The notes under the pieces: generated by a model
The model's database searches: none
What the model was told of the DNA's origin: nothing
What the model saw: the letters and a program-made list of their open reading frames with translations, nothing else
Shown: one piece after another, positions 3,080-31,642 of the stretch
Layout of the letters: every line of letters starts with the position of its first letter
Position numbering within the stretch: the stretch's first letter is position 1
Source: Candidatus Poribacteria bacterium
GTDB lineage: Bacteria; Poribacteria; WGA-4E; WGA-3G
Direction: 5' to 3'
DNA length: 35,496 bases
Assembly: GCA_022822085.1 (NCBI GenBank)
Contig: JAJECK010000065.1
Location: forward strand, 1-35,496
Position numbers and translations under genes: made by a program

Positions 3080-3117
3080 AATCAGATTTCCTTCCAATAT
3101 GATTAGTTATCAGTTGT

Positions 3118-5199: not shown

Positions 5200-5210
5200 G
5201 AGTTGTTTCC

Positions 5211-9412: not shown

Positions 9413-10414
9413 CTATGTATTATATCCTAATCTCGCCATCGTGTCATGGAAAATTGGTGCAACACTATGATGTATATCAAATTGTTCTCTGGGAGGAATA
9501 GGGTGTAAAGTATTTCGTGCATACTCCAGAAAGGTTGTATCCAATTGCAAATCACAAAACTCACATAATTTCGGAAGCACTTCATCTGGTTTTGATGTAA
9601 GTTCTTCAAAACAAACCGTATAAACACAATCAGAAGTTGTTTCCAATACGCGAAGCCCTTCCCGCATAGTTACAACCCATTCAACAACTGCTCGGTCCAA
9701 ATGTCGATTAAATGAACTGACTTCCGATGCAAATTCATTCATGTCAGTGTCTGTATACACCAATTGTTCTACCAATAACTCCCATTTTCGGTTATTAATG
9801 CCCCACCAATCATGTGTTTCACCACTGTTTTGAATTCCATGATGTTCAGACCATGCAGCAATTGATTGACAGGTATCCCAACCATTACGAATGAGAAAAA
9901 TAAATCTTGCATCTGGGAACAGCTTTTGGACAAAATCTACTCTGAAAATAAGTTCCGGATATTTATCAACAAGTCTATGTGAGAAGGTACTAGACAAATA
10001 TGCCCCAAATAGTTGTTTGGCACGCCGACAAGTTTCATAATCGGCATCTTCAGATGTTAAACGATAAAATCCCTCTCCTTGACTATAACTGCCTATTACA
10101 TCTTCTTTTTTATGAATTATATGCCAAATTGCCTTCGGCTCATTGAGATAACCTACCTCCTGATGCATAGATAGGACTAATCCAAGGATCGTTGTTCCAC
10201 TTCGTCCTATACCCAAGATGAAAATTGGTTGCTTAACTGGTTTGAATTCTCTCTTACTATATGATATGCCATTTAGTAGAGATAGAACAAGTGAATTAAT
10301 CCAACGTCCTTTTGTCGTTGCAGGACGTCCTTCAAAAAACGCATAACTTATTAAACGAGTTAATGCTTTCAAAGGACGCGTTTTGATATAATTTTTATTG
10401 AGGTGTGCAATCAT
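9413..10414 (-). CDS. Sulfotransferase family protein (ST1)
   Basis: Probable PAPS-dependent sulfotransferase that transfers sulfate to a carbohydrate. The 5'-phosphosulfate loop is FILGIGRSGTTILG (about residues 65-78), and the 3'-phosphate-binding region is FLIRNGWDTCQS. A family-typical late segment, VCFEELTSKPDEVLPKLCEF, corresponds to the 'YEdL ..P ... l..F' region of bacterial carbohydrate sulfotransferases. About 60 residues precede the P-loop, which is longer than in ST2 and may be an extra helix or association segment. No clear Shine-Dalgarno precedes the ATG. It lies 38 bp downstream of ST2 and 33 bp upstream of sulfatase S3, so one transcript likely carries both sulfating and desulfating enzymes. 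The acceptor is unknown. Confidence 0.85.
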   Translation of the reverse strand: MIAHLNKNYIKTRPLKALTRLISYAFFEGRPATTKGRWINSLVLSLLNGISYSKREFKPVKQPIFILGIGRSGTTILGLVLSMHQEVGYLNEPKAIWHIIHKKEDVIGSYSQGEGFYRLTSEDADYETCRRAKQLFGAYLSSTFSHRLVDKYPELIFRVDFVQKLFPDARFIFLIRNGWDTCQSIAAWSEHHGIQNSGETHDWWGINNRKWELLVEQLVYTDTDMNEFASEVSSFNRHLDRAVVEWVVTMREGLRVLETTSDCVYTVCFEELTSKPDEVLPKLCEFCDLQLDTTFLEYARNTLHPIPPREQFDIHHSVAPIFHDTMARLGYNT

Positions 10415-10452
10415 ATTTTTGTTCGTATATAACTTTAGACCATCGATTCTAT

Positions 10453-11478
10453 CTACAATCGTCTTCGTATCGTTTCTCGGATATTTTTAATCCTGTCCAG
10501 ATTGCATAGAAATGCCAACACTACTTTAATTGGAAATGTAAAGAAATCTATCAGCAAACTAAAAATGTTAGGTCTAATCTTAACAGATTCGTAGTTGTGT
10601 TTTTTCATCAATTCGCCATTCAGTTTCTGATTTATATAGATTTCTGACGAATTCAGATTCCCGCCCTGAAGGTTACCTGAACTCCAATTCCCTGCTCTAT
10701 TGGGGTTGATACCAGTCTTCGTCGGTTTATCAGTATCTACAGAAGAACCAACTTGTGGGACCTGTAGCATAGATTGTGTATATTCTATTTCTATAAATTC
10801 ACATAATTCTGTGACTGTTTTCTCAGGTAAATCAAGCAGTTGTTCAAAATAAACTGTCCGGACTCTGTCATGCTTTGTAAATTGATCCGCTGTTTTAACT
10901 GCAGTATGCCAAATTCTACTTATTGTTATTGGGTGATAATTTACCCAATCTCGGAACGATTCTTTTAGTGGTAAATCTGAGCCGCCCAGAAATCTTCGTT
11001 TCCACTTCCGTTTCTGAGACAATAACACATCACGGGGGTCGCGAACCATGTTAATTATTTTTGCTTGTGGATAAACTTTTAGTATTTCATCAATATAAAA
11101 TACATTACGTGGTGTCTGATCACAAGGAATTGATTTGCCATTCAGCATCGTCTCATTCTGAAGAAATGCTAAATAGAGAACGGTAGGGGAAATTGAATGA
11201 CCATCAATCCCATCACAAAGTTTCTGTGCATCCTCTTCGAATTTACGTGGATCGCCTTGTTGACGATAACCAATTCGTTGTATGCAGAATAGTTTTGAAG
11301 CCAATTCTTCAGCATCAGGTCTACTCAATCCTGATGTCCGTGCTGGAGACCATAACTGCCCAAAAAAATGTAGTTCACCAAAAGTATGGACATCTGCATG
11401 GTTACCCAATATACGTCCCATCATTGTCGTTCCACTACGACTGTTACCAACAACAAACAGCATTTTCTCCAAATTCAC
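10453..11478 (-). CDS. Sulfotransferase family protein (ST2)
   Basis: Probable PAPS-dependent carbohydrate sulfotransferase. The 5'-phosphosulfate loop LFVVGNSRSGTTMMGRIL is at the N-terminus and the classic 3'-phosphate site NMVRDPRDVLLS is in the middle. TVYFEQLLDLPEKTVTELCEF is the usual downstream block. The C-terminus has a hydrophobic segment (about 310-328) that may be a membrane-associating helix. The start is GTG with GAGG about 7 bp upstream, overlapping the stop of the glycoside hydrolase gene by 4 bp. An in-frame ATG five codons later is an alternative. It resembles ST1 more than ST3 or ST4 in the GRSGTT/SRSGTT form of the loop. Substrate is not predictable. Confidence 0.86.
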   Translation of the reverse strand: MNLEKMLFVVGNSRSGTTMMGRILGNHADVHTFGELHFFGQLWSPARTSGLSRPDAEELASKLFCIQRIGYRQQGDPRKFEEDAQKLCDGIDGHSISPTVLYLAFLQNETMLNGKSIPCDQTPRNVFYIDEILKVYPQAKIINMVRDPRDVLLSQKRKWKRRFLGGSDLPLKESFRDWVNYHPITISRIWHTAVKTADQFTKHDRVRTVYFEQLLDLPEKTVTELCEFIEIEYTQSMLQVPQVGSSVDTDKPTKTGINPNRAGNWSSGNLQGGNLNSSEIYINQKLNGELMKKHNYESVKIRPNIFSLLIDFFTFPIKVVLAFLCNLDRIKNIRETIRRRL

Positions 11479-13103
11479 AGTCTTACCTCAATTGTTCCAA
11501 AACTGTTTTTTGGAATTCTAAGCTTGTTCACATTCCCACGCCATTCTTGTATTTCTACCTCAATTTTTCCAGAACCTTCCATCTCTGCATTCCCGCCGTT
11601 TGTAGCGGATATATTATCATTGGCAACATACCGATAAACAGCATCTTTGTTGATCTTCTTACCGTCTATCATAAATTCAGGAATATAGTCTGCTGCAGTG
11701 CGATTACTCACCATCAAGTAAATTGTTTGACTATTCCCGATTGCTTGGATCTGAACACCAGGTATCTGTTTGTTCTCATAATCTAACTTACCTACAAGTT
11801 GTGGCATGTTAGCAGTTGTAATGGAATATTGAGTATCTGATTCTGCAAATACCTCGCCAATTAACTGAAATGCAGAATGGACAGTGCGACGAATAGTGTC
11901 CCCATAATCTGATTCAGGTTCTCCGCCATATTTCCAAAATGTTTTTGAATTTACTGGTGTGATACGCGAGAATACTGGAAATCCTTTACCAGGTCCTGTT
12001 ATCACATGAAAGTTTGCATGTGTAATAATTGGATAACTCAGCAATTTTAGAAAAAAGTCGCCTACGTACATTGCATGCAGTTGTGTGTTCGCAACACGAT
12101 TGGCAGGATTTGCTATATTCCATTCTGTAATCCACATCTCTTTATCTGGAAACAAGTCTTGATAATAAGTCATTGCTTCTTCACACTCATAATGTATCCA
12201 ACCGAATAGGTAACGACGCATCGTGTCAATTTCAACATCTTTTACTGCTTTGTAAGCATACACATGCACAGAGAATGCATCATACCAATCTGTTGACGAT
12301 GGAGCAGAATAATTAGCAAGTTTTTCATCCCATTTGCGCTGGACACTCTTGATTAAAAATCCTTCCTTGTGAAATGCTACAGGTGTTGCACATACTGATA
12401 CTTTTATATCTGGATTGACTTTTTTCATTGCTAATGCATGCTTTTTTGCTTCATTCATATATATATCAGCAGTGCGAAATTTCTTTACATAGTGGGGTAG
12501 ATAATACTCATTGCCAAGTTCCCAATGATTAATTTTGTACCCTTTCTCCATTGAATAACTAACCCATGCTGCACTCTCATCTGGGTTACCAGTCCACAGA
12601 TTGACAACAACGATTGGTGTAATCTGCAAGTCTTGACAAAGTTTCATAAAATCGTCAAAAGAGATGATTCCATCTCGACGTTTTTGTAGTTTTACATAAT
12701 TCCCTCTATTACGTTTATTAAGTTGAGTGCTAAGCGTTGAATTCATCTCATCTTGCCGGAATCCTGCAATATTCCAATGATAGAAATTTCCAACTGTACC
12801 TCCAGGGAACCTTAAAGTTTTAGGTTTTAGGACCTTCGTTAACGCAATAAAGTCGTCATCAAGATATCCGTAATCCCCGCTCATCATGTTCGTATTAAAT
12901 CCGTAGAGTTCTTTTCTCAATGGCATGCTGCTTTGTGTGTTAACATCTATAGATAGCACTTCAGAGATCGATACTTCTATGTCGTAATCAAGATATAATG
13001 TAAGAATCACCAAACCTACTATTAATAATATACATACAATCAGGATAATTCTTATATATTTTGAATTCCAGATGCTTTGCAATAAAGTTTTACTAAAATT
13101 CAT
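11475..13103 (-). CDS. Membrane-anchored clan-A glycoside hydrolase (GH51/GH39/GH79-like)
   Basis: Probable periplasmic retaining glycosidase tethered by one N-terminal membrane helix (residues 18-38). The rest looks like a TIM barrel followed by a beta-rich C-terminal domain. LRFPGGTVGNFYHW is typical of arabinofuranosidase-like clan-A enzymes. WELGNE gives a candidate acid/base E199, and MWITEWNI gives a candidate nucleophile E327; the spacing of about 128 residues is plausible for the clan. The ATG overlaps the Wzy-like gene's stop by 4 bp and its own stop overlaps ST2's start by 4 bp, placing it firmly inside the polysaccharide operon. Glycosidases in exopolysaccharide operons, such as PslG in Pseudomonas, act on the polymer being exported. 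The same role is inferred here. Exact GH family is uncertain. Confidence 0.8.
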   Translation of the reverse strand: MNFSKTLLQSIWNSKYIRIILIVCILLIVGLVILTLYLDYDIEVSISEVLSIDVNTQSSMPLRKELYGFNTNMMSGDYGYLDDDFIALTKVLKPKTLRFPGGTVGNFYHWNIAGFRQDEMNSTLSTQLNKRNRGNYVKLQKRRDGIISFDDFMKLCQDLQITPIVVVNLWTGNPDESAAWVSYSMEKGYKINHWELGNEYYLPHYVKKFRTADIYMNEAKKHALAMKKVNPDIKVSVCATPVAFHKEGFLIKSVQRKWDEKLANYSAPSSTDWYDAFSVHVYAYKAVKDVEIDTMRRYLFGWIHYECEEAMTYYQDLFPDKEMWITEWNIANPANRVANTQLHAMYVGDFFLKLLSYPIITHANFHVITGPGKGFPVFSRITPVNSKTFWKYGGEPESDYGDTIRRTVHSAFQLIGEVFAESDTQYSITTANMPQLVGKLDYENKQIPGVQIQAIGNSQTIYLMVSNRTAADYIPEFMIDGKKINKDAVYRYVANDNISATNGGNAEMEGSGKIEVEIQEWRGNVNKLRIPKNSFGTIEVRL

Positions 13104-14449
13104 AAAGTAATCCTTAATGGTTTATAGGTCTGAAGTGCTGTATCACTCACAAACATTAATGCAGCACACATCCAGAAGTAGAAACCGTATCCTCTAAATT
13201 CAAGAGTTCTGTTAAAGAACAGTAAAAACATTGTAACAACAACAAGGCAGATCATTACCATTGCCATATCTTTTGTAAATTTGCTAACAGTATTTTTATA
13301 TAATTTCAATGATGCAGTGAAGAGGCGATAGAAAATAAACATGAACAATCCTAATCCAAGTAATCCATAGAAACACAAGATAGCAACCCAATAAACATCT
13401 TTAAAACCTTTCTTACTCAATATTTTGAATAGGAAGGACCGTTTACTCTTATTGAGTTTTTCAATTGTAGTATTTTGGTCTGCCCCATAACCTAATATAG
13501 GTTTGTTGACTAGTACAGTCGGTACATTTCCCAAAATCGCACCAAGACGTTGTTTCTGTGCTACCTTTACATAAGAACCTGAAAATACACCCGTAATGTT
13601 GCCAGTGAGTCCAACTTTTGCTTTTCTCGGGTTAACATATTCCAATTCAAACGGATTCACTATTGCCAATATCACACTGAATACCAATAAAACAATTAGT
13701 GATAGGCGAAGTGTCATTTTCCAACCATATTGAAAGAAGTACCAAACAACACATGCGAGCATTGCAGAAAAAGTCGCAGCACGAGAATAAGAACGTGCTA
13801 TAAACAATAACAATAATCCTATACCGAGAAGGTTGAGATAGTCAAGTCGTTTGATCCGAGATAGAAATATGGTGAGTATAACAATCATAAATACACCATA
13901 TATTACCGTATCACCTAATGTCCCATAAATACTACCAATTTCTCTCCCAAGTTCAAGCAACCTAAATTCTTTTGTGAAACCTGCCACCTCAAGAGTAGAT
14001 GCACGTGGCAAAAACAGGTCATATAGGGTAGGGCCGCCAAGCCACTGAACCAAACCGACACCGATTTGCACAACCCCTATACATAAAATAATCCGTAACA
14101 GTGTTGTAATCCGTTGATGAGATAACGAAGAATTTACGACAAGATAAAAGAGCACTATATAACGAGCAAGAGGACGGATGTTATATAGACTACCGATTAT
14201 GGGTGAACGGTTGATAAACATTGACAGAAAGACGACAAAATAAAAACCAATGACTGGTAAATCAATAGGTGTTTTGACAAACGGAATTCCTCTATATAGT
14301 TTGTGGAAAACGAGTCTACCAAAAGCAGCATAGATTAGGATTTCTCCTAAGAAACGTAGATATGAATAAACAGAATCACTTACAGGTAGGAACTTCAGTA
14401 TAAATTCTTCAAATGCAAAGTAACCTGTCAGAAAATAGATAATATGCAT
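13100..14449 (-). CDS. Wzy/O-antigen-ligase-like polysaccharide polymerase
   Basis: Integral membrane protein with about 11-12 predicted helices and one larger extracytoplasmic region between about residues 265 and 345. The arrangement, and the segment LLLLFIARSYSRAATFSAML, match the Wzy_C/O-antigen ligase family, where the arginine-containing segment opens the catalytic loop. The conserved-looking GYGAD lies late in the loop, as in other family members. It would polymerise flipped repeat units on the outer face of the cytoplasmic membrane. It is followed by the glycoside hydrolase with an ATGA overlap. No clear Shine-Dalgarno precedes the ATG. Polymerase is favoured over ligase because the locus also holds a flippase and a Wzi protein, but the two cannot be told apart by sequence. 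Confidence 0.8.
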   Translation of the reverse strand: MHIIYFLTGYFAFEEFILKFLPVSDSVYSYLRFLGEILIYAAFGRLVFHKLYRGIPFVKTPIDLPVIGFYFVVFLSMFINRSPIIGSLYNIRPLARYIVLFYLVVNSSLSHQRITTLLRIILCIGVVQIGVGLVQWLGGPTLYDLFLPRASTLEVAGFTKEFRLLELGREIGSIYGTLGDTVIYGVFMIVILTIFLSRIKRLDYLNLLGIGLLLLFIARSYSRAATFSAMLACVVWYFFQYGWKMTLRLSLIVLLVFSVILAIVNPFELEYVNPRKAKVGLTGNITGVFSGSYVKVAQKQRLGAILGNVPTVLVNKPILGYGADQNTTIEKLNKSKRSFLFKILSKKGFKDVYWVAILCFYGLLGLGLFMFIFYRLFTASLKLYKNTVSKFTKDMAMVMICLVVVTMFLLFFNRTLEFRGYGFYFWMCAALMFVSDTALQTYKPLRITL

Positions 14450-14487: not shown

Positions 14488-15381
14488 CTACCAATGTGTT
14501 AGATCTTGTCCAATTAATTCTGATAATTTTTCATTGTATGGTTTAAAATAGTTGTATAGTTCATTTTGTGTATTCGGATTTAATGGGGGAGGCGTAAAAG
14601 GTTTGTCGTTCAAGTCCAACACGGCTTTTCTGAGTTTGTATGCTGCTGTATCTGGGACAAGTCTACGAATTACACGTCTTATAGGATTACGTGATGCCAG
14701 GAATTGGGTAAACAGATACCCAAACTTTTCTGATCGTGGCATCGCTGCTTGATTAATCCTTTCACTAACTTGAGGTTTAAAATCTGAGCTAATTCCCATT
14801 ATGTCATATATTTGTTGACATATACCTATCGCATTCGTTTTCAACGCATCCGTTAGAAAACAATGCACTTTATCTCTACCAAATAACGAGTACAAATTAT
14901 TTATATGTAAAGAGTATGTACTGTTGAATTTATATAGACACTGCCTCCATTTAAACCAATCTTCATTATGGCGTGCCTCTTCTGCTACAAGTGCTTCTTC
15001 AAAGGTTTTTATATTTTCCCAACCTCTACGGCGCGCCCACCAATACGCAGACGATGCGCGCGCTATCGGTTCTCTCAATAGCACTATGAGATTAATATTC
15101 GGATTGTGTTCAAAAATCCTTTGCATTTTTTCTGAAGAACACATTACCATTACATTTTTCGCGATGATGTACTTGTCACTTGGACATTTTGAAAAATACT
15201 TGGCATAAGCAGAATCGTATCCACGCTTATACTCGTGGTCTTGAAGAAAGTAAGTCATTTCAGGTTGAGGATGCGTCCAGATATCTGGATGTTGTGCTAA
15301 GTATCGCAACAAAGAAGATGTACCTGACTTCTGTGCCCCCACAATCATCAGTTGTATTTTGTTCTGTTCCACATTGTCCAT
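14488..15381 (-). CDS. Heparan-sulfotransferase-like sulfotransferase (ST3)
   Basis: Probable PAPS-dependent sulfotransferase of the NDST/heparan-sulfate-like group. The 5'-phosphosulfate loop is MIVGAQKSGTSSLLRYLAQHP, with the GxxKxGTSSL form and HPDI segment of that group. The 3'-phosphate region is IVLLREPIARASSAYWW. A late block near residues 196-215 precedes a basic C-terminal region. The length of 297 residues is usual for the bacterial members. The ATG is 14 bp downstream of ST4's stop and the gene ends 38 bp before the Wzy-like gene. The cytoplasmic location of PAPS suggests sulfation of lipid-linked repeat units before flipping, which is an inference. Specificity is unknown. Confidence 0.86.
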   Translation of the reverse strand: MDNVEQNKIQLMIVGAQKSGTSSLLRYLAQHPDIWTHPQPEMTYFLQDHEYKRGYDSAYAKYFSKCPSDKYIIAKNVMVMCSSEKMQRIFEHNPNINLIVLLREPIARASSAYWWARRRGWENIKTFEEALVAEEARHNEDWFKWRQCLYKFNSTYSLHINNLYSLFGRDKVHCFLTDALKTNAIGICQQIYDIMGISSDFKPQVSERINQAAMPRSEKFGYLFTQFLASRNPIRRVIRRLVPDTAAYKLRKAVLDLNDKPFTPPPLNPNTQNELYNYFKPYNEKLSELIGQDLTHW

Positions 15382-15395
15382 CTGTAATGCTTATC

Positions 15396-16385
15396 CTATG
15401 TAAATGGTTTCCAAGGTGGCTGTTTTCCTAAGAGTAGTGCTAAATCATCTACATCAGGTCTATAATAGTCCACTAAACGTTTCTGTGTATCATCAGATAG
15501 TGTGACACTCTCAGTAGATCGTGTGTTCAATCGTAGATAAAGCGGTTCAAATCCTCTTCTCATTGCCTGTAATGTCTTATGTATAAGCGGTTTGTTATGC
15601 GTCCAGCGACGCACTCGAAATCTAAATGACCTATATTTCTGATGAAATTCTGGGTTTCTCATTGTTTCCGTTCGATTAGTGACCTGAAATGTGTAATCAT
15701 TGAAAAATGTTGAATCTAAATCAGCAAATTCACATAAATCCTTCATTACATCTAATGGATTTTTTGACAGATCTTCATAAAAAAATGTGTGTACTCGATC
15801 ATTTCCAAAACGATCAAGATAACATTTCAAAAAAGTAGTATAACGACCTTGAGGTAACACTTGCATAAACTGTGCATGATCTGAATTACGTTTGGAATCC
15901 GGACCAAATTGTTGAGTGTGATCAAACCCCTGTTTTCCATCAGCAATTTCAAAAAGTCGTTCTACATATTCATCTATACTTAGACTATTCGGCAACCTTC
16001 CAATCTGTATTGCAAAACGATACCACGATATCAACCGTGAGATTGGTTCACGAAGACTAAAGACCAACTTTGCATTTGGTAGCAATTCTGATATTCTCTC
16101 AAGTGCAGAGGAACAATACAGATAGTCTGGTGTCGATTCAAGTCTAATTCGATTATCCTGAGAATCTGAGAACAATAGATTGTATTTCTCGACATCGCCA
16201 TTGAAACGGTATTTTGACGGTAGCGGATAATCTGAACTGAGGAAGAATCGAGTTTCTTTATATGATGCAGCAGAGATAGCAGGATGGTCAGAGAGATATG
16301 AAAACAGTGATGTCGTAGCTGCTTTTGTTGTCCCACCTATTATAAGATATTGATACTCACTGACCGCTTTCGTTGAAGATTTCAT
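15396..16385 (-). CDS. Heparan-sulfotransferase-like sulfotransferase (ST4)
   Basis: Fourth sulfotransferase of the locus and most similar in layout to ST3. The 5'-phosphosulfate loop is LIIGGTTKAATTSLFSYLSD, a variant in which alanine replaces the usual glycine of KxGTTSL. HPAIS and ETRFFL follow, as in NDST-like enzymes. The 3'-phosphate site is LVFSLREPISRLISWY. VHTFFYEDLSKNPLDVMKDLC is the standard later block. The ORF is intact at 329 residues and lies 50 bp after the flippase gene. Its tandem position with ST3 suggests duplication and divergence to modify a different hydroxyl or amino position of the repeat unit; this is inferred. Confidence 0.85.
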   Translation of the reverse strand: MKSSTKAVSEYQYLIIGGTTKAATTSLFSYLSDHPAISAASYKETRFFLSSDYPLPSKYRFNGDVEKYNLLFSDSQDNRIRLESTPDYLYCSSALERISELLPNAKLVFSLREPISRLISWYRFAIQIGRLPNSLSIDEYVERLFEIADGKQGFDHTQQFGPDSKRNSDHAQFMQVLPQGRYTTFLKCYLDRFGNDRVHTFFYEDLSKNPLDVMKDLCEFADLDSTFFNDYTFQVTNRTETMRNPEFHQKYRSFRFRVRRWTHNKPLIHKTLQAMRRGFEPLYLRLNTRSTESVTLSDDTQKRLVDYYRPDVDDLALLLGKQPPWKPFT

Positions 16386-16435: not shown

Positions 16436-17779
16436 TCAAGATTTTGTGTATAAAGAAACACCAGTTTTTCTTAGCAGAAATACCAGATTTCCAACAGCCA
16501 AAATCGCCGTAACAGATACTGTAATCGCGATACCATTAAGTTGCCATACTGTTACAAGGATGTATGCTACGACGAAGTTAATAATTGCCATCGTTAGCAT
16601 GTTTCTAAATATCAACTTATATTCTTTTTGTGCATATAGTCCAGCGTTCAGAACAGGAATTAGACAAGAAAATACAGTGCCTATGCTAAGCCAAATAAGG
16701 ATTCTTACGATTGTTTGAAGGGATTGTTCATCGAACTTACCACCACTAAATAGTAGATGAGTAATATAGGATGCACACAAAACAAGTAAAAATGTTATTG
16801 GTAATGCAATAATTATGACAGAGCGAATGTTACGTATTAGTGTTTGTTTCAGTTTCTGTCTGTCTTCTTTAATACTGTTTGCTGCCATTTCTGGTAAACC
16901 GGTCGTAGCAATACTTATCCCAATTAATGTCTGAATAGCAGAGAATATCTTGAATGCACTATTATATAGGGTTATTGCTCCATTACCAATTCTTCCTACT
17001 AAAATAACTTCAACCAATATGCGTGCAGTGATTTGGCGAATAGCAAAACCAAGAGTGGGATATGAAATAGTCTCTTTCAAAGAACGTAATTCATCATAAG
17101 TTATCCAAGAAAAACGATATCCATATCCTACTTGATAAATTCTTGTACATAACCAACCATAGTATACTACAAAACCACATGTATATGCTATTGCAATATA
17201 ACGTACAAGGTTCTTATCACTTGAAAGGAATATAAAACATGCTGTTGCAATGGCAGGTGGAAGAGCGTTTCGTATGGCAACAGTTTTGAACCTTTTCTGA
17301 CTGTTCAATAAAGCACTGAGAATGGTACTTCCTGTTCCAAAGAGGACAATTGGTGCACATATCCGTAATAGAGATGCCATTAAAGCGTGTGCATCAGTTG
17401 AACTGCTTGATAATGTAAATCTTGCAATCTGTGTTGCGAATACCTCAATCAACAGCATGAAAACAACACTTACACATAGCGAAAAATTTAATATCCCATT
17501 CGTAAAATAACGAAAGTCTGTGTTGTTTCTCAAATTGCCTTCGTTGATAAACAACGGAACAAGACTAAATTTTGCCCCTTCTCGGATTATGGTATCAACT
17601 ATGAGAACAACTTTCAGTGAAGCGATTAAGGCATCTGCCGTTTCATTTATTCCAAGGTATCTGGGAATAAAAACATGAAATATAAGGCTCAATCCCATAC
17701 CTATTGCGGTAATAAACATAACCCAATGGGATGGAGTTGGTCTCAACTTTTCCAGTAATTTAGAGGTATTTTTGATCAA
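16436..17779 (-). CDS. MurJ/MviN- or Wzx-like lipid-linked oligosaccharide flippase
   Basis: Polytopic membrane protein of the MOP superfamily with about 12 hydrophobic segments across 447 residues. The N-terminal block, GLSLIFHVFIPRYLGINETADALIASLKV followed by IIREGAKFSLVPLFI, resembles MurJ/MviN (R-G x8 N/D-A-D and 'lvP.f'). It is shorter than canonical MurJ (about 500 residues). It would move lipid-linked repeat units across the cytoplasmic membrane for the Wzy-like polymerase. An in-frame stop lies two codons upstream and the first possible start is TTG at 17779, with no ATG until residue 21. The TTG start is therefore likely, with only a weak GTGAG upstream. The gene lies 25 bp after the nucleotidyltransferase. 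A dedicated polysaccharide flippase is favoured over the housekeeping lipid II flippase because of the locus. Confidence 0.8.
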   Translation of the reverse strand: MIKNTSKLLEKLRPTPSHWVMFITAIGMGLSLIFHVFIPRYLGINETADALIASLKVVLIVDTIIREGAKFSLVPLFINEGNLRNNTDFRYFTNGILNFSLCVSVVFMLLIEVFATQIARFTLSSSSTDAHALMASLLRICAPIVLFGTGSTILSALLNSQKRFKTVAIRNALPPAIATACFIFLSSDKNLVRYIAIAYTCGFVVYYGWLCTRIYQVGYGYRFSWITYDELRSLKETISYPTLGFAIRQITARILVEVILVGRIGNGAITLYNSAFKIFSAIQTLIGISIATTGLPEMAANSIKEDRQKLKQTLIRNIRSVIIIALPITFLLVLCASYITHLLFSGGKFDEQSLQTIVRILIWLSIGTVFSCLIPVLNAGLYAQKEYKLIFRNMLTMAIINFVVAYILVTVWQLNGIAITVSVTAILAVGNLVFLLRKTGVSLYTKS

Positions 17780-17804: not shown

Positions 17805-18206
17805 TCACCCTTTTAGAATCTTTTCTACAATGTCAGTCGTATGAATATAGTCAGTATCCACAGTCTGAACTGGGGTATCTAACTCCAGTTCTTGTAATAT
17901 TTCCCTTAATCTCGCATTTCCATCAACACCCTCAACACATATATCTGGGGCAACTTTAGCGACTAAATCTAATTGGGATTCTAAAGAAAATACTTCTACT
18001 GCATCTACATGCCGACATGCTTCTAACAACGCGATACGGTGCTCAAGCGGATAGATAGGTCTATTTTCACCTTTTACACGTCGAACTGTATCATCCTCAG
18101 CAACACCTACCACAAGACGATCTCCACATGCAGCCGCCGCTTCAAAAAATTTCAAATGTCCATAATGAAAAAGGTCAAAACAACCCGTAACTAAAACTGT
18201 TTTCAC
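17805..18206 (-). CDS. HxGH-type sugar nucleotidyltransferase (TagD/HldE-C-like)
   Basis: Small 133-residue cytidylyltransferase-fold enzyme. TGCFDLFHYGHLKFF holds the HxGH nucleotide-binding motif (H14, H17). RRVKGENRPIYPLEHRIALL is the usual second block. HTTDIVEKI near the end matches the ST-T/S-x-I motif region of TagD, PCYT and the HldE C-terminal domain. It should join a sugar phosphate or polyol phosphate to CTP or ATP, giving an activated donor for the locus. The GTG start overlaps the FGGY kinase's stop by 4 bp (GTGA), so the two products are probably made together and act in sequence. The sugar and nucleotide are not readable. It is not a fused HldE, because the partner is not a PfkB-type kinase. 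Confidence 0.85.
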   Translation of the reverse strand: MKTVLVTGCFDLFHYGHLKFFEAAAACGDRLVVGVAEDDTVRRVKGENRPIYPLEHRIALLEACRHVDAVEVFSLESQLDLVAKVAPDICVEGVDGNARLREILQELELDTPVQTVDTDYIHTTDIVEKILKG

Positions 18207-19198
18207 GTTTGTAGTTCCAATGCTCTAAATGCGTATTTTGCTGTTTGTCTATGTTGATATACCTCTGCATCAGGCGGAGCGACGAAATGAAATTGACTTT
18301 TCAGTTTGTCCAGTTCCGGTGCAAGTTCTTCACCATACCCACCAATAACAAAGATCTCAGATTGATCGGGAACTTGCATCAACTCAAAAATTGAGATGAT
18401 ATATTCCATGTCATGAAGTGTAATTGGATTTGAAACCCTTTTCACAAGTTGTTTATGAAAACTACCGTGCGCAGTGATAGTCCAACGGACTCCCATGGCT
18501 TTTTCATCTGGTCTTGGAAGAAAAGCAATTTCAGGATGGCTAATCACAACCCAGGTACCTGCAATAATAATTGGTTTGGGATTAAATACTGAGATACAAC
18601 TGTGATCGTGTCCACCACCAAACACTAATGCCCCTCTTTCTGTTTTACCCACTACAGTCGCAGAACTCATAAATTCTGTTGAGAAGGGTAAGGGATCACA
18701 TTTATATTTTTTGAGTAATTCTACTGCCCATTGCCGTTGAGAGATGTTGAGCATTCCACTATTGCCTGCATGAGTTAATTCCCAAGTATATATTTCTTTA
18801 TTGACAAGACGAGATGCAATGTATGTTGATACAGGCAATGCAGGCCCTTCTGTATAAGTCTTAAATGTCAATAGTGATTGAAAAGCTGAACCAATATCTC
18901 GTTCAACATCTGTTGCAGTACCTACCTGACAGTAGTTATCTTCAGTCATAAACGCTTTATTGTGTGTTGGCTCATATACAGTATTGTTATAGATTACACC
19001 TTCTCCAAAACTAAGGGGAAAGATCGCTTGATATGTGTAGTTATCAAACATTGATATAACTTCTCTAACACCCTTTTCAAACGAATCGGGTGTTGACATA
19101 TCGGTAGGTATTTTATATTCTTTTACGATCTCAATAGAATTATTGAACAAATAACCTTTTGTAAATGAACAACCTATGTCAAGTACTAAGATTTGCAT
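18203..19198 (-). CDS. Compact FGGY-family (rhamnulokinase/fuculokinase-like) sugar kinase
   Basis: Probable ATP-dependent carbohydrate kinase of the ASKHA fold and first gene of the polysaccharide array. The N-terminal VLDIGCSFTKGYLF is the phosphate-1 motif. VFGGGHDHSCISV corresponds to the FGGY catalytic GGHD region, with D as the likely general base. IIAGTWVVISHP is the second phosphate loop, and VIGGYGEELAPELDKL near the C-terminus is the adenosine region. At 331 residues it is well below the usual 450-500. The ORF is open throughout and all core motifs are present, so it looks compact rather than broken. The ATG has AGAGGG about 7 bp upstream. Coupling to the nucleotidyltransferase suggests sugar phosphorylation followed by NMP transfer. 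Substrate unknown. Confidence 0.75.
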   Translation of the reverse strand: MQILVLDIGCSFTKGYLFNNSIEIVKEYKIPTDMSTPDSFEKGVREVISMFDNYTYQAIFPLSFGEGVIYNNTVYEPTHNKAFMTEDNYCQVGTATDVERDIGSAFQSLLTFKTYTEGPALPVSTYIASRLVNKEIYTWELTHAGNSGMLNISQRQWAVELLKKYKCDPLPFSTEFMSSATVVGKTERGALVFGGGHDHSCISVFNPKPIIIAGTWVVISHPEIAFLPRPDEKAMGVRWTITAHGSFHKQLVKRVSNPITLHDMEYIISIFELMQVPDQSEIFVIGGYGEELAPELDKLKSQFHFVAPPDAEVYQHRQTAKYAFRALELQT

Positions 19199-19303: not shown

Positions 19304-21988
19304 TTATTTTATCACAACTAATCTTCTCATTTGTTTAAATGTTGATGTTGCTAACTCGTAAAAGTAGACTCCACTTGCCACCTTTTCTCTAAATTCGTTC
19401 TTTCCATCCCAATGTGCGGCTTTATCACGACTGATATAATAACCTGACTTCTTAAATCCTGAATGAAGTTTCCTAACAACTTTCCCAGAAGCATCATATA
19501 TGCGAATTGTAAGATTCGAATCTTCAGCTAGTTGGTAAGGAATCCAGGTCTCAGGGTTAAACGGGTTTGGATAATTTGCATGTAGTTTAGTTCTCATCGG
19601 ATCTTTAATAGGCATCAACAAGAGTTTTTCTAAAAAACGTTTTACCAATGTAATTTGTGTAGTATCAGGAGATAATTCTTCAATTATTTCATAAAATGTA
19701 GCAAGTAATTCAATGTCTTCATCAGATAATAACTTAACTATGTCAATCTCTGTTTCAGGAAGTGAATTAACTGATGGAGCGGCACTATTGCCCTCTTCTA
19801 TTACCTCAATTACATATACAACATCTTGTAAGTCTACCTTACCATCTTTATTCGCATCATAACGTGGGTTTGAAGAAGGGTTCTCCCCAAAATGCGCAAC
19901 TATGATCAATAAGTCAATAATGTTGACTTTACCGTCTAAATTTACATCACCAGAATCTAAAAGTTCTGTCCCTTCTTCTATGACATGCAACACTTGGTTT
20001 ACTTTGACATCCTTTATTTTTTGTACTATTCCACTTGGCCAATAGATAGCCAATTCACTGACCTTTTCATTTTGTGCGAGTCCAAAATGGATACGTTTCT
20101 GATCCTGTTGTGCCCAATGAATACCTCCGTTTCGTTCACGCAATTGCTTTTTACCATCAGGTGTGGTAGCAAATAGACGTGCACCGATCCCATCCCTATT
20201 TGATTTTTTTCCCTCTAAATCTATCTGAAGCCAATTATTGCCATTCCCGATGTTACGGTATAGTTGGTCAGGACCATTATTAAATGGATATACTCCTCTA
20301 CCATTTGTAACAAATAAGTCTAAGAACCCGTCTAAGTCATAGTCAGCCATTGTCACACTCATTCCTTTTCCTGACGTGTTTGCTTCTGCCCCACCAGCAC
20401 CAGGAACTCGGATAAACGTACCATCACCTTGGTTTTCATATAGTTGGTTTGGGAGGTTAGCAGCACTATTTGAACGAACGATATAAAGATCTAAGTCCAT
20501 ATCATTATCAAAATCACCTGTTGTAACAGAACGACCATCTGTTGTTTCAGAAAATGCAATCTTACGAAAATGAAGTTGGGATAAACTTAAACAGAGTTGA
20601 GATTTTGGATTATAATTAAGATCTGTAGATGTAAAGTTGATCGGGTTTATATCTAAAATCTGTTCTTTTGATGAAATCAGTGCTTCAAATCCTGACCAAT
20701 TGGTACTAATTGACGGCATTGTATGATATAAGATTGTCCATTCCTGTGACTCTACGTCGTATCCAATATATGTTCTCCATTTCTCATCTATCTGCCGATC
20801 CTTAAGTCCAAAAACCCTTGGGTCTGAAGGATCAAGCACAAATGAAAAAGATGATACATTTCGTTCTCGATCCGTAGGTGTATAATGTCCATCAAATGTA
20901 TGAATAGTATAACCTTCTTCCCCAATCACAAGATGGCTGATGGCAGATGCCCAATTTGAGTGGACTTCAAACTTGACAAGTCCATCAGTTTTGAAACTGA
21001 AGCCTTTTTCACCTTTATTAATGATAACGTATGCTTTTACACTAAAAGGGAAATCTTGATTGTTTTGTTCAATATTATTAGGAATTCGTCTTGTTTGAGT
21101 ATTGGATGTGTCAAGAAAAGAACGGTAAAATCCACATGTTAAGAACGCATCTGGAATCAGATCTCCATTGAAATCTGCAAAAATTGAATCTTGGACATTA
21201 TAGGCTTTTGGAAAATTAAGGGTAGCTGCTAAATCATTAAATGGTGTAGTAGATATATCATAAATATGTGCGGGATATAGCCTACCATCCACAAATAATT
21301 CCATGGATCCATCACCAGTAACATCCGCAAGTTGTGCTAAAGCCGAATCTTTTTCAATGTGACAGCCAGCTTCAGAATTAACATCTTCAAATCCTTCAAT
21401 AGTCTGTTCAAATAAAGTTGATGCTACAAGTGCTCCTGATTGGTCTGTTTGCGTCTTTCCTGTAAATAGCAAATCAAGTAATCCATCTTTATTCCAATCA
21501 AACCAAAGAGGGGCTCTACCCCGTAACAATGGCATGTCTATTCCGTATTTAGACGCACTTTCAATTAATTTCCCATTTTCATTCACATAAAAGTGATTAT
21601 AATGTGTTTGGTTTGTACGATTAACGCCACCACCACCACCACATAAGACTATCAGATCTTGATCCCCATCATTGTCAAAGTCCGCCCACGCAACACCGTG
21701 CGTGTCTGCAAAGTGATATGCATTCCATACCTGGTCAATAATATCTGTAAAAGTACCATCTCCATTGTTTCTATAGAGGCTGGGTTTATGCTTATGGTTT
21801 GTCGCCCATAAGTCAAGATATCCATCACCGTCAAAATCTCCCCATGCATTTCCCCAACTCTCGCCGATGCGGGTAATTCCTGCTTGATGTGAAACTTCTT
21901 CAAATTGTATATCAGACCAAGATGGAATCAATAAACACAATACTCCCAATACTATTAACAATAAGAAAATCTTGCAATCTTTTAACAT
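19304..21988 (-). CDS. Secreted FG-GAP/ASPIC-UnbV repeat protein with dockerin-like pair and C-terminal sorting module
   Basis: Large secreted protein of 894 residues. A Sec-type signal peptide covers residues 1-25. FG-GAP/VCBS Ca-binding blades occur at about 49-115 (DFDGDGYLDL, DFDNDGDQDL), 160-175, 220-280 and 490-565. An ASPIC/UnbV domain covers about 598-665, ending in AIYWPSGIVQKIKDVKVNQ. A dockerin-like pair (DVNLDGKVNIID, DANKDGKVDLQD) covers 681-725. A helical spacer is followed by the NYPNPFNPETWIPY module from 801 to the end at RRLVVIK. The architecture resembles CRTAC1-like beta-propeller proteins; adhesion or matrix binding is inferred. The ATG is preceded by AAGGA. It lies 105 bp upstream of the polysaccharide array and could share its transcript. 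Confidence 0.9.
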   Translation of the reverse strand: MLKDCKIFLLLIVLGVLCLLIPSWSDIQFEEVSHQAGITRIGESWGNAWGDFDGDGYLDLWATNHKHKPSLYRNNGDGTFTDIIDQVWNAYHFADTHGVAWADFDNDGDQDLIVLCGGGGGVNRTNQTHYNHFYVNENGKLIESASKYGIDMPLLRGRAPLWFDWNKDGLLDLLFTGKTQTDQSGALVASTLFEQTIEGFEDVNSEAGCHIEKDSALAQLADVTGDGSMELFVDGRLYPAHIYDISTTPFNDLAATLNFPKAYNVQDSIFADFNGDLIPDAFLTCGFYRSFLDTSNTQTRRIPNNIEQNNQDFPFSVKAYVIINKGEKGFSFKTDGLVKFEVHSNWASAISHLVIGEEGYTIHTFDGHYTPTDRERNVSSFSFVLDPSDPRVFGLKDRQIDEKWRTYIGYDVESQEWTILYHTMPSISTNWSGFEALISSKEQILDINPINFTSTDLNYNPKSQLCLSLSQLHFRKIAFSETTDGRSVTTGDFDNDMDLDLYIVRSNSAANLPNQLYENQGDGTFIRVPGAGGAEANTSGKGMSVTMADYDLDGFLDLFVTNGRGVYPFNNGPDQLYRNIGNGNNWLQIDLEGKKSNRDGIGARLFATTPDGKKQLRERNGGIHWAQQDQKRIHFGLAQNEKVSELAIYWPSGIVQKIKDVKVNQVLHVIEEGTELLDSGDVNLDGKVNIIDLLIIVAHFGENPSSNPRYDANKDGKVDLQDVVYVIEVIEEGNSAAPSVNSLPETEIDIVKLLSDEDIELLATFYEIIEELSPDTTQITLVKRFLEKLLLMPIKDPMRTKLHANYPNPFNPETWIPYQLAEDSNLTIRIYDASGKVVRKLHSGFKKSGYYISRDKAAHWDGKNEFREKVASGVYFYELATSTFKQMRRLVVIK

Positions 21989-22157: not shown

Positions 22158-23846
22158 TTACTTTCTAACGGTCATTTTTGCTGTTGAAATATAATTATCT
22201 GAAATAATTGTATAGAAGAAAAGTCCACTTGATACAGCCTCTCCTGCCTCATTTCGTCCATTCCAATATGCTGCTCTGGATTTGTTTTGATACACACCTG
22301 CCGATAAATGTCCTAACGCTAACTTCCGTATATGTTTACCATCAGAAGAATAGATAAAAATGGTAACTTTAGCAGGTTTTGCAAGTTGAAAAGGTATCCA
22401 TGTCTCAGGGTTGAATGGGTTCGGGTAGTTCTGCAATAAAGTTGTCGTTTTTGGTAATACTTCTACGTTGTTCAGAAGTTCCTTGAGTGACTCTAATACG
22501 GTTAATCCTCTTTGCAGTTTAGGTTCTCTTGTTCTAATCTTCTTAGCACTATGTATCCATTGAGTGAGATTCGTTATACTCAAATCTGATATCCCAACAT
22601 TATTGTTAGTAAGTTTAGGTGCAGCGGCATCTGTACTTCCCATTTCTGACGCGACAATCAGCAGATCAATAATATCAACATCACCATCACTGTTGACATC
22701 CGGATAGATGTTCATCTCGGCAAGTACATTTAAGTCGAAATCACGAAAATTAGATGCCACTAAGACCATATCTGTAATAGTTACTACACCGTCCCGATTT
22801 ACATCTGCCGTGTTGAATGGTTGTTGTGGAATCAAGTTGGGAGGAGGTTCAGTTTGATTGCTGGCATCGTACTCCTCAAGGTTATCTATCAATCCTGCAA
22901 TCGGAGAGAAGTCGGTTATATGGTTGTCATGAAGAATCAATTTTGTGAGTTTTGTCATACCCTTGAGTGGTGATATATCGGTTATATGGTTTTCTTGAAG
23001 TCTTAAGTTTATCATATCTGTCATATTTTTAAGTGGAGACAAATCTGACACCTGATTTCCATGAAGATCAATGAATACCAACTTTACCAAATCACTAAGT
23101 GGAGACAAATTGGTAATTATCTTATTGTCATTTAGGTTCAAGTATTTCAACTTTGTCAAAGGACTAAGTGGCGACAGATCCGAAATCATATTATCATCAA
23201 GTGCTAAGTTTACCAGATTTGTCAAAACAGAAAGCGGGCTTAAGTCCGATATCCGATTTTGATCAAGATTTAGGAATGTCAACTTGATTAACTTTTTGAG
23301 CGGTGTCAAATCTGATATTCTATTGTAACCAATATGTAAGTATGTCAGGTTTGTCAAATCCTTAAGAGGTGACATATCTACTATTATGTTGCCTCTAAGT
23401 GAGAGCCAAGTTAGATTTGACAAATCTTTGAGTGGTAATAAATCCGATATATTTCTGTTTCGATGAAGGTCAAGAACTGAGAGTTTTTTCAAGCCTTTGA
23501 GTGGTGATAAATCCGAAATCTGATTCAAGCCAAAACTCATCACTTTCAAATTAGTAGCAAACTCAAGTCCAGTTAAATCAGTGATTCCAACTTCAAATGC
23601 GGCAAGAGATTCTAACTTTGCCAAATCAACTTGTGTGATGTCCTCGCCGTCTTCTTTGTTGAGTGCCAACTCAATAATCACACGTAATTTCGGATCAGGA
23701 ATTTGGACGGTCTGTGCGTATGCTATCTGGGAGTACATTAAAATAAGCATACTAACAGTGAAAATAAAGACCATGGCATGTCTAAGTCTTATATCTTGGT
23801 AGGCATAGCGGACATCTCTTGAGTCAACAGAAGTAAAATGTGTCAA
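22158..23846 (-). CDS. Secreted SDS22/internalin-type leucine-rich-repeat protein with dockerin-like pair and sorting module (short paralogue)
   Basis: Secreted protein of 562 residues. A membrane-entry signal (about 25-44, ending AYA/Q) follows a long basic N-region. A short capping segment (IPDPKLRVIIELAL) precedes about ten 22-residue leucine-rich repeats of the form LxxLxLxxNxIsDlSPLkxL, from about residue 83 to 310. These are internalin/SDS22-like and typical of protein-protein binding solenoids. A dockerin-like pair (DVNRDGVVTITD, DVNSDGDVDIID) and the NYPNPFNPETWIPF module follow, ending KMTVRK. The start is TTG with a strong AAGGAG 8 bp upstream; an ATG at residue 25 is an alternative. 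It lies 26 bp downstream of a longer paralogue. Host or matrix binding is inferred. Confidence 0.88.
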   Translation of the reverse strand: MTHFTSVDSRDVRYAYQDIRLRHAMVFIFTVSMLILMYSQIAYAQTVQIPDPKLRVIIELALNKEDGEDITQVDLAKLESLAAFEVGITDLTGLEFATNLKVMSFGLNQISDLSPLKGLKKLSVLDLHRNRNISDLLPLKDLSNLTWLSLRGNIIVDMSPLKDLTNLTYLHIGYNRISDLTPLKKLIKLTFLNLDQNRISDLSPLSVLTNLVNLALDDNMISDLSPLSPLTKLKYLNLNDNKIITNLSPLSDLVKLVFIDLHGNQVSDLSPLKNMTDMINLRLQENHITDISPLKGMTKLTKLILHDNHITDFSPIAGLIDNLEEYDASNQTEPPPNLIPQQPFNTADVNRDGVVTITDMVLVASNFRDFDLNVLAEMNIYPDVNSDGDVDIIDLLIVASEMGSTDAAAPKLTNNNVGISDLSITNLTQWIHSAKKIRTREPKLQRGLTVLESLKELLNNVEVLPKTTTLLQNYPNPFNPETWIPFQLAKPAKVTIFIYSSDGKHIRKLALGHLSAGVYQNKSRAAYWNGRNEAGEAVSSGLFFYTIISDNYISTAKMTVRK

Positions 23847-23872
23847 TAGATCTACTCCTTAATAATCTACAT

Positions 23873-25948
23873 TTACTTACGAAGAAGCATTTTGCCAGAT
23901 GCAGTGAAATTATCTGCAGTAAACATATACAGGTAAATCCCACTTGCAACAGCCTCACCTAAGTTGTTTCGTCCATCCCAATAAGCCGCACGGGATTTGC
24001 TACGATATACGCCAACAGGTGTGTGTCCGATCTGTAACGTTCTCACGAGTTTCCCATCAGCAGTATAAATATAAATATTCACTTCTGCGGGTTTCGCTAA
24101 TTGATACGGTATCCATGTTTCAGGATTGAACGGATTTGGGTAGTTCGTTAGTAGTGCAGTCTTTCTCGGTAAAACCTTTCCAAAAGCAAGAACTTTTAAG
24201 AGTTGTTCCAAAAATGCAATCCCTCTTAGCATTTGTGGATCATCCATACCATGTTGTTTAGCGAGCCAAATCCACTGTGATAGAGTTTCTGTTGTAATAT
24301 CAGTGGTTTCAACTGAGTCATTAATGAATGTTGGAGCATTTGAAAATGTACCTATTTCCGATGCAACAATTAATAGGTCAATAATATCAACTGATCCATC
24401 TTTGTTTACATCTGGAAAAATGTTAGATTCTGCAAGAGTCTCTAAGTCAGAATCATGAAAGTTAGATGCAATCACAACCAGGTCTGTGAGATTCACAACA
24501 CCATCTCTGTTTACATCTGCGAAAATTATAGGAGGTTCCACTTCAAGATCTGGGGGAGGATCTGTTTGTCCACTTGCATCGTAGTCCATCAGATTTCCTA
24601 TTAACCCTGCGATCGGTGAGAAATCTGATATATAGTTGTCGTGCAAGTCTAATACTTTGAGTTGTGTCAAATATTTGAGTGGGGTTACATCTATTATCTT
24701 ATTGCCATCAAGGTCTAATACTGTAAGTTGTGTCAAATATTTGAGTGATGTCACATCTATTATTTCGTTATCATCTAGATCTAATTCCATCAAGTTTACC
24801 ATGTTCTTGAGTGCAGTTATATCTGAGATAGTATTACCGTGTAGATCTAATACTTTAAGTTTCGTCAATCTACTGAGTGGAGAAATATTTGAAATTTTAT
24901 TACTGTCAAGATCTAATTCAGTCAGGTTTCTCAAATTTTGTAGCGGCGTTACATCAGTAATAATGTTGTCATTTAGATCTAAATATTCTAAATTTATCAA
25001 ATTTTGGAGTGGTTTCACATCCGATATACGACTGTGGTCAATATCCAGCCAAGTTAGTTTTGTCAAATTTTCAAGTGGCGTAATATCAAGTATTTGGTTG
25101 TCATCAAGATCAAGTATCGTCAATTTTGTTAATTTACGAAGATCTGATATATCTGATATCAGGTTATCGTCAAGATCCAGGTATGTCAATTTTGTCAAAA
25201 ATTTGATACTGGAGATGTCCGATATCTGATTATCGGAAGCATCTAATTCAGTGAGATTTATCAATGTCTCAATCGGTGTCAAATCTGATACATTAGCACT
25301 GTCAAAATCAAGATATGTTAGATTTGTCAATCCACTGAGTGGTTTCAAATCTGAAATCCTGTTCACTTCAATATCCAAGAATGTTAAGTTCGTCAAGGAT
25401 TCAAATGGAGTTACATCCGTTATTCGGTTGTAAGCGATATGTAGATATGTTAGATTAATCAAATCTTTGAGTGGTTTTGCATCAATTATACTATTGCCTC
25501 GAAGGGAAAGCCATGTCAGATCTGTTAGTTCTTTGAGGGGTGATACATTTACTATACGTCTGTTCCGATGAAGATCAAGGACAGTAAGTTTTTTCAAACT
25601 TTTTAATGGTGATATATCAGATATTTGGTTTAGTCCAAGATGCAACTCTGTCAAATTGATAGCAGACTCAAGTCCACTTATATTGCGGATACCAGATTCA
25701 AATGCATCAAACGATTCTAAACTTGCCATATCCTCTTGAGTAATGTCTTCACCAATTTGTTTACCTAATGCCAACTCAAGAGCAGCACGGAGAGCTGGAT
25801 CAGGTATGTCAACAGTCTGTGCCGCTGCATTCCTATATGGACTCAAAATGAGTATATTCGTTATAATCAGACCAAATATGAGAAATTGTCTAAACTTTCG
25901 GATTGAATATGAGATGTAATGTCCTAAGGTAAGTGTGATAAGTCTCAA
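23873..25948 (-). CDS. Secreted SDS22/internalin-type leucine-rich-repeat protein with dockerin-like pair and sorting module (long paralogue)
   Basis: Same plan as its 562-residue neighbour but with about sixteen 22-residue leucine-rich repeats instead of ten. A signal peptide near residues 20-44 ends AAA/Q. The cap IPDPALRAALELALGKQ matches the neighbour's cap. The repeats run from about 80 to 445 with consensus LTxLDLdDNxIsDiTPLxxLT. The dockerin-like pair (DVNRDGVVNLTD, DVNKDGSVDIID) and the NYPNPFNPETWIPY module end in KMLLRK. The start is TTG with AAGGAA about 11 bp upstream; no in-frame ATG occurs before the signal region. The sixfold difference in repeat number between tandem paralogues points to repeat gain or loss. 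The binding partner is unknown. Confidence 0.88.
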   Translation of the reverse strand: MRLITLTLGHYISYSIRKFRQFLIFGLIITNILILSPYRNAAAQTVDIPDPALRAALELALGKQIGEDITQEDMASLESFDAFESGIRNISGLESAINLTELHLGLNQISDISPLKSLKKLTVLDLHRNRRIVNVSPLKELTDLTWLSLRGNSIIDAKPLKDLINLTYLHIAYNRITDVTPFESLTNLTFLDIEVNRISDLKPLSGLTNLTYLDFDSANVSDLTPIETLINLTELDASDNQISDISSIKFLTKLTYLDLDDNLISDISDLRKLTKLTILDLDDNQILDITPLENLTKLTWLDIDHSRISDVKPLQNLINLEYLDLNDNIITDVTPLQNLRNLTELDLDSNKISNISPLSRLTKLKVLDLHGNTISDITALKNMVNLMELDLDDNEIIDVTSLKYLTQLTVLDLDGNKIIDVTPLKYLTQLKVLDLHDNYISDFSPIAGLIGNLMDYDASGQTDPPPDLEVEPPIIFADVNRDGVVNLTDLVVIASNFHDSDLETLAESNIFPDVNKDGSVDIIDLLIVASEIGTFSNAPTFINDSVETTDITTETLSQWIWLAKQHGMDDPQMLRGIAFLEQLLKVLAFGKVLPRKTALLTNYPNPFNPETWIPYQLAKPAEVNIYIYTADGKLVRTLQIGHTPVGVYRSKSRAAYWDGRNNLGEAVASGIYLYMFTADNFTASGKMLLRK
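24661..24792. repeat. Nearly identical 66-bp direct repeats inside the long LRR gene
   Basis: Two adjacent 66-bp units, each encoding one complete 22-residue LRR plus part of the next, are much more alike than other units of the gene. The 19-base block beginning GTTGTGTCAAATATTTGAG occurs at 24661-24679 and again at 24727-24745, exactly 66 bp apart. The encoded repeats both contain KYLTQL. This indicates a recent unit duplication within the array. Confidence 0.75.
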
Positions 25949-31596: not shown

Positions 31597-31642
31597 ATCT
31601 TCTAAAGGCTTCTGTTGATTGTATATTCTTGGAAATCTAATT

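Follow-up and report, generated by a model that had tools for sequence, protein, structure and literature searches.

The window analyzed here, a stretch of 35,496 nucleotides, is a whole contig from a genome (5.63 Mb, 96.5% complete) of Candidatus Poribacteria, which are sponge-symbiont bacteria. Two adjoining genes on its reverse strand encode a compact FGGY-like (ASKHA) kinase (18203 to 19198; 331 amino acids [aa], ATG start) and an HxGH nucleotidyltransferase of the CTP_transf_like type (17805 to 18206; 133 aa, GTG start). The stop codon of the kinase and the start codon of the nucleotidyltransferase overlap in the sequence GTGA (18203 to 18206, reverse strand), and the first-pass annotation of a 331-residue kinase overlapping a nucleotidyltransferase by 4 bp was thus exact.

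The surrounding genes, likewise on the reverse strand, belong to a surface-polysaccharide cluster. Directly downstream of the pair lies a MurJ/Wzx-type flippase (16436 to 17779), and the upstream flank is formed by an FG-GAP/ASPIC protein with dockerin and sorting tail (19304 to 21988); we refer to the position between them as the slot. Beyond the flippase are two sulfotransferases (14488 to 16385), a Wzy/O-antigen-ligase-like membrane protein that serves as the core cluster marker (13100 to 14449; Wzy_C at 24.9 bits, below the cut-off of 31.7), a glycoside-hydrolase-79-like protein with an N-terminal hydrophobic segment (11475 to 13103), two further sulfotransferases (9413 to 11478), three sulfatases with dockerin and sorting-tail type domains (3118 to 9379), the capsule assembly protein Wzi (1451 to 3097) and a GT4-type glycosyltransferase (DUF1972; 198 to 1316). 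A second GT4-type glycosyltransferase lies at the opposite end of the cluster (26865 to 28067). On longer syntenic contigs, the gene following the DUF1972 glycosyltransferase encodes an initiating sugar transferase (PF02397, Bac_transf), and the cluster therefore combines the flippase, polymerase/ligase-like protein and initiating transferase of a Wzy-type system, the last of these being seen in the syntenic contigs. No other nucleotide-sugar genes were found within the window. Between the FG-GAP/ASPIC protein and the distal glycosyltransferase, leucine-rich-repeat (LRR) proteins with dockerin and C-terminal sorting tails (22158 to 25948, reverse strand) vary in copy number between genomes. 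Adjoining the cluster is a bacterial RNA-repair pair, also on the reverse strand, comprising Pnkp (kinase-phosphatase-ligase; 29032 to 31689; PF16542, 598 bits) and Hen1 (31643 to 33034; PF12623, 378 bits), whose position is kept in several related genomes.

Motifs and predicted folds of the two proteins

Pfam FGGY_N (PF00370) was recognized in the kinase only over residues 123 to 187 (31.7 bits against a gathering cut-off of 28.8), and FGGY_C gave no Pfam match at an E value of 0.1. Because FGGY_C is unrecognized, we name the protein FGGY-like and do not treat it as a canonical member of the two-domain family. Its motifs comprise an N-terminal DIGCSFTK loop (D7, G9, S11, K14; pattern DxGxSxxK), GGHD (G195 to D198), an AGTW loop (G214-T215-W216) and a C-terminal VIGGYGEEL. 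D7, G9, S11, K14, G195, G196, D198, G214, T215 and W216 are invariant across the kinase alignment, down to approximately 25% identity. The first-pass annotation regarded the short kinase as functional on account of its phosphate and GGHD motifs and named loss of catalytic residues in a full alignment as evidence to the contrary; in all relatives the key residues proved to vary little or not at all, and the kinase is predicted to be catalytically intact.

An AlphaFold model of the kinase (pLDDT 84.9, pTM 0.87, from an 11-row alignment) points to an FGGY-like fold. Foldseek against the PDB placed FGGY kinases at the top, namely LsrK (4.4e-14), xylulokinase, L-rhamnulokinase (RhaB) and glycerol kinase (GlpK), with many FGGY structures among the listed ranks at E values of 4e-14 to 3e-11 and TMq of 0.58 to 0.79. 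A PDB search with the kinase sequence returned no match, and no compact counterpart was found in a viral fold library. When the kinase was aligned by hhalign with RhaB, FucK, XylB, GlpK and LsrK of Escherichia coli, residues 2 to 244 paired with residues 5 to 296 of RhaB. The GGHD motif fell on the HD motif of RhaB, and D198 is therefore likely to be the catalytic base. Beyond the aligned part, 87 C-terminal residues remain in the kinase compared to approximately 193 in RhaB, indicating that the contraction in size lies mostly in the C-terminal domain. Structure prediction and comparison with RhaB and FucK, which had been suggested for locating what the short kinase lacks, thus place the missing part at approximately 100 residues of that domain. 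Like RhaB, XylB, GlpK and LsrK, the protein has the FGGY fold in its predicted model, the N-terminal phosphate loop, the HD base motif and the GT phosphate loop; it differs from them in its size (331 aa compared to 472 to 530 aa in the E. coli set), in the shortened C-terminal domain and in the missing FGGY_C match. Known FGGY carbohydrate kinases are mostly catabolic.

The nucleotidyltransferase belongs to PF01467 (75.4 bits against a cut-off of 21), with motifs GCFDLFHYGH (H14, H17), K45-G46 and R49-P50, and with IHTT replacing [I/Y]STT. Its nearest profile is that of HldE-C/RfaE2 (TIGR02199), at 103.5 to 103.7 bits and under the curated cut-off of 181.5, and the profile of TagD/glycerol-3-phosphate cytidylyltransferase (TIGR01518) scored 44.1 bits against a cut-off of 165.4. 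A structural model (pLDDT 86.7) matched both HldC and TagD (5.1e-9 for TagD). In a tree of 37 rows, the orthologue group (four rows) and two distant copies formed one clade (96/90) beside HldE-C/RfaE2 and apart from TagD, with one member (L026) on a long branch and bootstrap values not fully settled. Where HldE has the acceptor motif GGDY and TagD has GDDW, the orthologues carry G[VA]DG, and HTT takes the place of STT; the VKGGDY motif of RfaE2 and the GDDW and RTEGIST motifs of TagD are lacking. Identities as a heptose or as a CDP-glycerol enzyme were both considered and rejected, as scores lay under the respective cut-offs and the motifs were absent. In a sample of 387 genomes, the protein's own group scored 165 to 253 bits and all other sequences at most 107. 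A canonical RfaE2 is encoded elsewhere in the same genome, at 191.9 bits and above its cut-off of 181.5.

Conservation of the pair and its exchange with an epimerase

The first-pass annotation made its proposal depend on conservation of the pair in other genomes, and six orthologous pairs were found in other Poribacteria in the same gene order, with identities of 72 to 74% for the kinase and 86 to 89% for the nucleotidyltransferase. The overlap, as GTGA or ATGA, is kept in 7/7 orthologous pairs. Resolved dN/dS values were 0.04 to 0.18 for the kinase and 0.03 to 0.125 for the nucleotidyltransferase, several gene pairs yielding no value through saturation of synonymous sites. The pair is under purifying selection, and its conservation is far beyond chance.

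More distant relatives occur in other arrangements. In one poribacterial genome (G081), a nucleotidyltransferase is flanked on both sides by distant kinases (approximately 25 to 31% identity), each joint reading ATGA; another kinase-nucleotidyltransferase pair lies at a second locus. G079 and G081 each have one more compact kinase, located before NeuB-like and CMP-sugar-synthetase-like genes, so that members of the compact kinase family are found in two or more kinds of glycan cassette. The G079 locus (L084, 45 to 19158) also bears terminase and portal genes and is prophage-like; besides the compact kinase, NeuB and CMP-sugar synthetase-like genes, it contains an epimerase, PhyH and a sulfotransferase, forming a phage-borne glycan cassette. 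Near the glycan cassette of G081, an RRXRR protein (L085, 15755 to 16777, forward strand; 99 bits), which we take to be IscB-like, lies beside a TnpA-like open reading frame (16809 to 17222, forward strand). A further locus (L025, 9262 to 13317, forward strand) holds a tandem array of unannotated proteins of 221 to 277 aa with no Pfam match, several with NLxxRxxRR-like motifs, which are perhaps GT25-like glycosyltransferases.

The genome-wide search for the same gene pair proposed in the first-pass annotation recovered it in further Poribacteria and, within the limited searches made, nowhere convincingly outside them. No convincing compact kinase was found in phages or plasmids by tblastn or in IMG/VR with four queries, and a strict pattern scan of contigs from 84,980 species returned it in Poribacteria only. 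The 387-genome sample, drawn mostly from across the domain, gave only weak kinase matches, in longer frames of ordinary FGGY size. No FGGY neighbor was present within approximately 1.5 kb of the 22 best-scoring nucleotidyltransferases outside the group, nor at the plasmid and phage loci examined. One promising match, in huge phage LR756511 (49% identity), was set aside as an ordinary HldE-like fusion.

Within the family, the pair occupies a slot that is otherwise filled by a different gene. Among 59 family genomes, all of which were searched for the epimerase (E value at most 1e-70), the slot adjoining the flippase holds the pair in 7, a nucleotide-sugar epimerase in 51, both in none and neither in 1; the single exception (G060) is 83% complete and lacks Wzy. 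The Wzy cluster marker is present in 56/59 genomes and the kinase orthologue in 7/59. The hypergeometric value for this alternation (2e-8) is overstated, as the genomes are related. In pair-less relatives examined (6/6), an NAD-dependent epimerase of 331 to 352 aa adjoins the flippase; its best profile is GalE (136 to 140 bits, under the cut-off) and its best PDB match UDP-glucose 4-epimerase. Wherever the slot gene and Wzy are on one contig, they are on the same strand and 3.3 to 7.8 kb apart.

Phylogenies show that this exchange has happened repeatedly. In the rpoB tree, G000 (pair) and G046 (epimerase) are sisters (100/100), and G058 (pair) belongs to a different genus, where it is surrounded by epimerase genomes; the Wzy tree gives the same picture, placing G058 with the epimerase genome G071 (98/91). 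These placements imply that the slot has switched at least twice, and the rpoB tree suggests more. In the flippase tree, with moderate support, G046 groups with epimerase genomes (96/93) and its sister G000 with pair genomes (85/91). The flippase type thus tends to go with the slot gene, and the flippase may have been part of what was exchanged; a third flippase type, off the slot pattern, is carried by G031 and G037. The GT4-type glycosyltransferase at 26865 to 28067 follows species and not slot (89% identity to G046, an epimerase genome, compared to 72 to 76% to pair genomes), and it therefore need not use a different donor. The RpoB proteins themselves differ in length, the matched stretch being approximately 1,717 to 1,744 aa in five genomes of genus g4, 1,507 aa in G029 and 1,278 to 1,280 aa in the window's genus (sequences L175 to L180 are rpoB of G029, G058, G083, G080, G079 and G081). 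These differences are large in-frame inserts, and no intein or other non-RpoB Pfam domain was recognized in the two that were scanned.

A candidate route for sugar activation

We consider it probable that the pair is a module that supplies a nucleotide sugar to a Wzy-type cluster for a sulfated surface polysaccharide, exchanged with an epimerase in a manner that changes which activated sugar is available. From the sequences we infer two reactions, their order and the use of the product in the polysaccharide. With D198 as base and ATP as phosphate donor, the kinase would phosphorylate X, a small molecule bearing hydroxyl groups that is most likely a sugar in free form or a derivative of one. 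The coupled nucleotidyltransferase could then join X-phosphate with CTP or ATP to give NDP-X and pyrophosphate. NDP-X would be used by a glycosyltransferase of the cluster or elsewhere in building the repeat unit, which the neighboring flippase would export. Replacement of the module by the GalE-like epimerase at the same position would make a different activated sugar available. As the position is held in most relatives by a nucleotide-sugar epimerase, the pair probably makes a different activated building block, and the identity of the alternative gene fits sugar activation by a non-HldE route. The first-pass annotation had suggested that such a route might serve a monosaccharide or a polyol; the polyol version is weakened by the absence of the glycerophosphotransferase PF04464 and of LicD from the same genome. 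Against the supply-module reading stands the C-terminal domain of the kinase, which is some 100 residues short and without FGGY_C, so that activity may have been lost. The phosphate used by HldE-C-like enzymes is normally an anomeric one, whereas known FGGY kinases phosphorylate a non-anomeric hydroxyl, and the joint product of the pair would therefore be unusual.

Alternatively, pair and epimerase could both supply one nucleotide sugar, or two equivalent ones, and leave the polysaccharide unchanged; the pair would then salvage free sugar, taken for instance from the sponge host, and the epimerase would act on an NDP-sugar already present. The distal GT4-type glycosyltransferase and Wzy track the species tree as expected with an unchanged donor, but the tendency of the flippase to change with the slot hints at a changed repeat unit, an argument limited by the flippases of G031 and G037. 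The flippase thus favors a changed polymer and the conserved glycosyltransferase the same donor reached by another road, and on balance we regard a shared product as rather unlikely. That the kinase is instead a decayed FGGY remnant serving in regulation or as a scaffold, leaving the nucleotidyltransferase as the only enzyme, would account for the short C-terminal domain and partial Pfam match, but is the least credible of the explanations considered here given the low dN/dS and the phosphate and base motifs that are invariant or nearly so to approximately 25% identity.

Known systems suggest two further products. HldE (or RfaE1-RfaE2), whose product is ADP-heptose, resembles the pair in that a kinase and an HxGH nucleotidyltransferase of the same superfamily are encoded together and feed a surface glycan, and profile, fold and tree all place the window nucleotidyltransferase nearest to HldE-C/RfaE2/HldC. 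An ADP- or CDP-heptose type pathway in which the FGGY-like kinase replaces the pfkB kinase HldE-N/HldA is nevertheless very improbable, as the nucleotidyltransferase scores well short of the TIGR02199 cut-off with different acceptor motifs and no VKGGDY, a canonical RfaE2 is encoded elsewhere in the genome, and no other heptose gene was recognized within the window. A CDP-polyol pathway, making CDP-glycerol, CDP-ribitol or a similar compound to provide polyol-phosphate substituents of the kind present in teichoic acids and capsules, draws on the glycerol and ribulose kinases among FGGY enzymes and on the likeness in fold and size between the nucleotidyltransferase and TagD/GCT, which makes CDP-glycerol. 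TagD belongs to a separate clade, however, whose GDDW and RTEGIST motifs and TIGR01518 score the window protein does not share. Moreover, a search of the 96.5%-complete genome for CDP-glycerol glycerophosphotransferase (PF04464) gave 0 matches, with positive controls found, and LicD (PF04991) was also absent, making a CDP-polyol product less likely; we judge it improbable overall. Human cells offer a parallel in its favor, as FGGY together with ISPD yields CDP-ribitol, FGGY being needed only when ribitol is supplied (PMC4873967). There is therefore a precedent for an FGGY kinase that supplies a cytidylyltransferase and so leads to a CDP-linked surface-glycan donor, although the human genes are not coupled.

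ISPD is not an HxGH enzyme and has a different fold. Two elements of the proposed route are thus already known: activation by a kinase plus a nucleotidyltransferase, from HldE, and supply of a cytidylyltransferase by an FGGY kinase, from human cells fed ribitol. The literature searched contained no description of an FGGY-like kinase coupled to an HxGH enzyme, of so small a kinase or of such a pair alternating with an epimerase. No paper in it treated FGGY jointly with HldE, nor FGGY jointly with both polysaccharide biosynthesis and a nucleotidyltransferase, and a review of the FGGY family mentions neither nucleotidyltransferases nor polysaccharides. More tentatively, the locus may represent a new pathway, in which a miniaturized FGGY-type kinase (so far seen in Poribacteria only, including a prophage-like glycan cassette) and a new HxGH clade would generate an unprecedented NDP-donor, and the epimerase swap would alter a sulfated symbiont polysaccharide.

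If the supply-module reading is true, an FGGY-type kinase route would be added to the few known kinase-plus-nucleotidyltransferase sugar activations. The slot also presents a clean case, in uncultured sponge symbionts, of a putative donor-supply module being naturally swapped within a surface-polysaccharide cluster. Because sister genomes differ at the slot, the donor chemistry would be directly testable with two small proteins.
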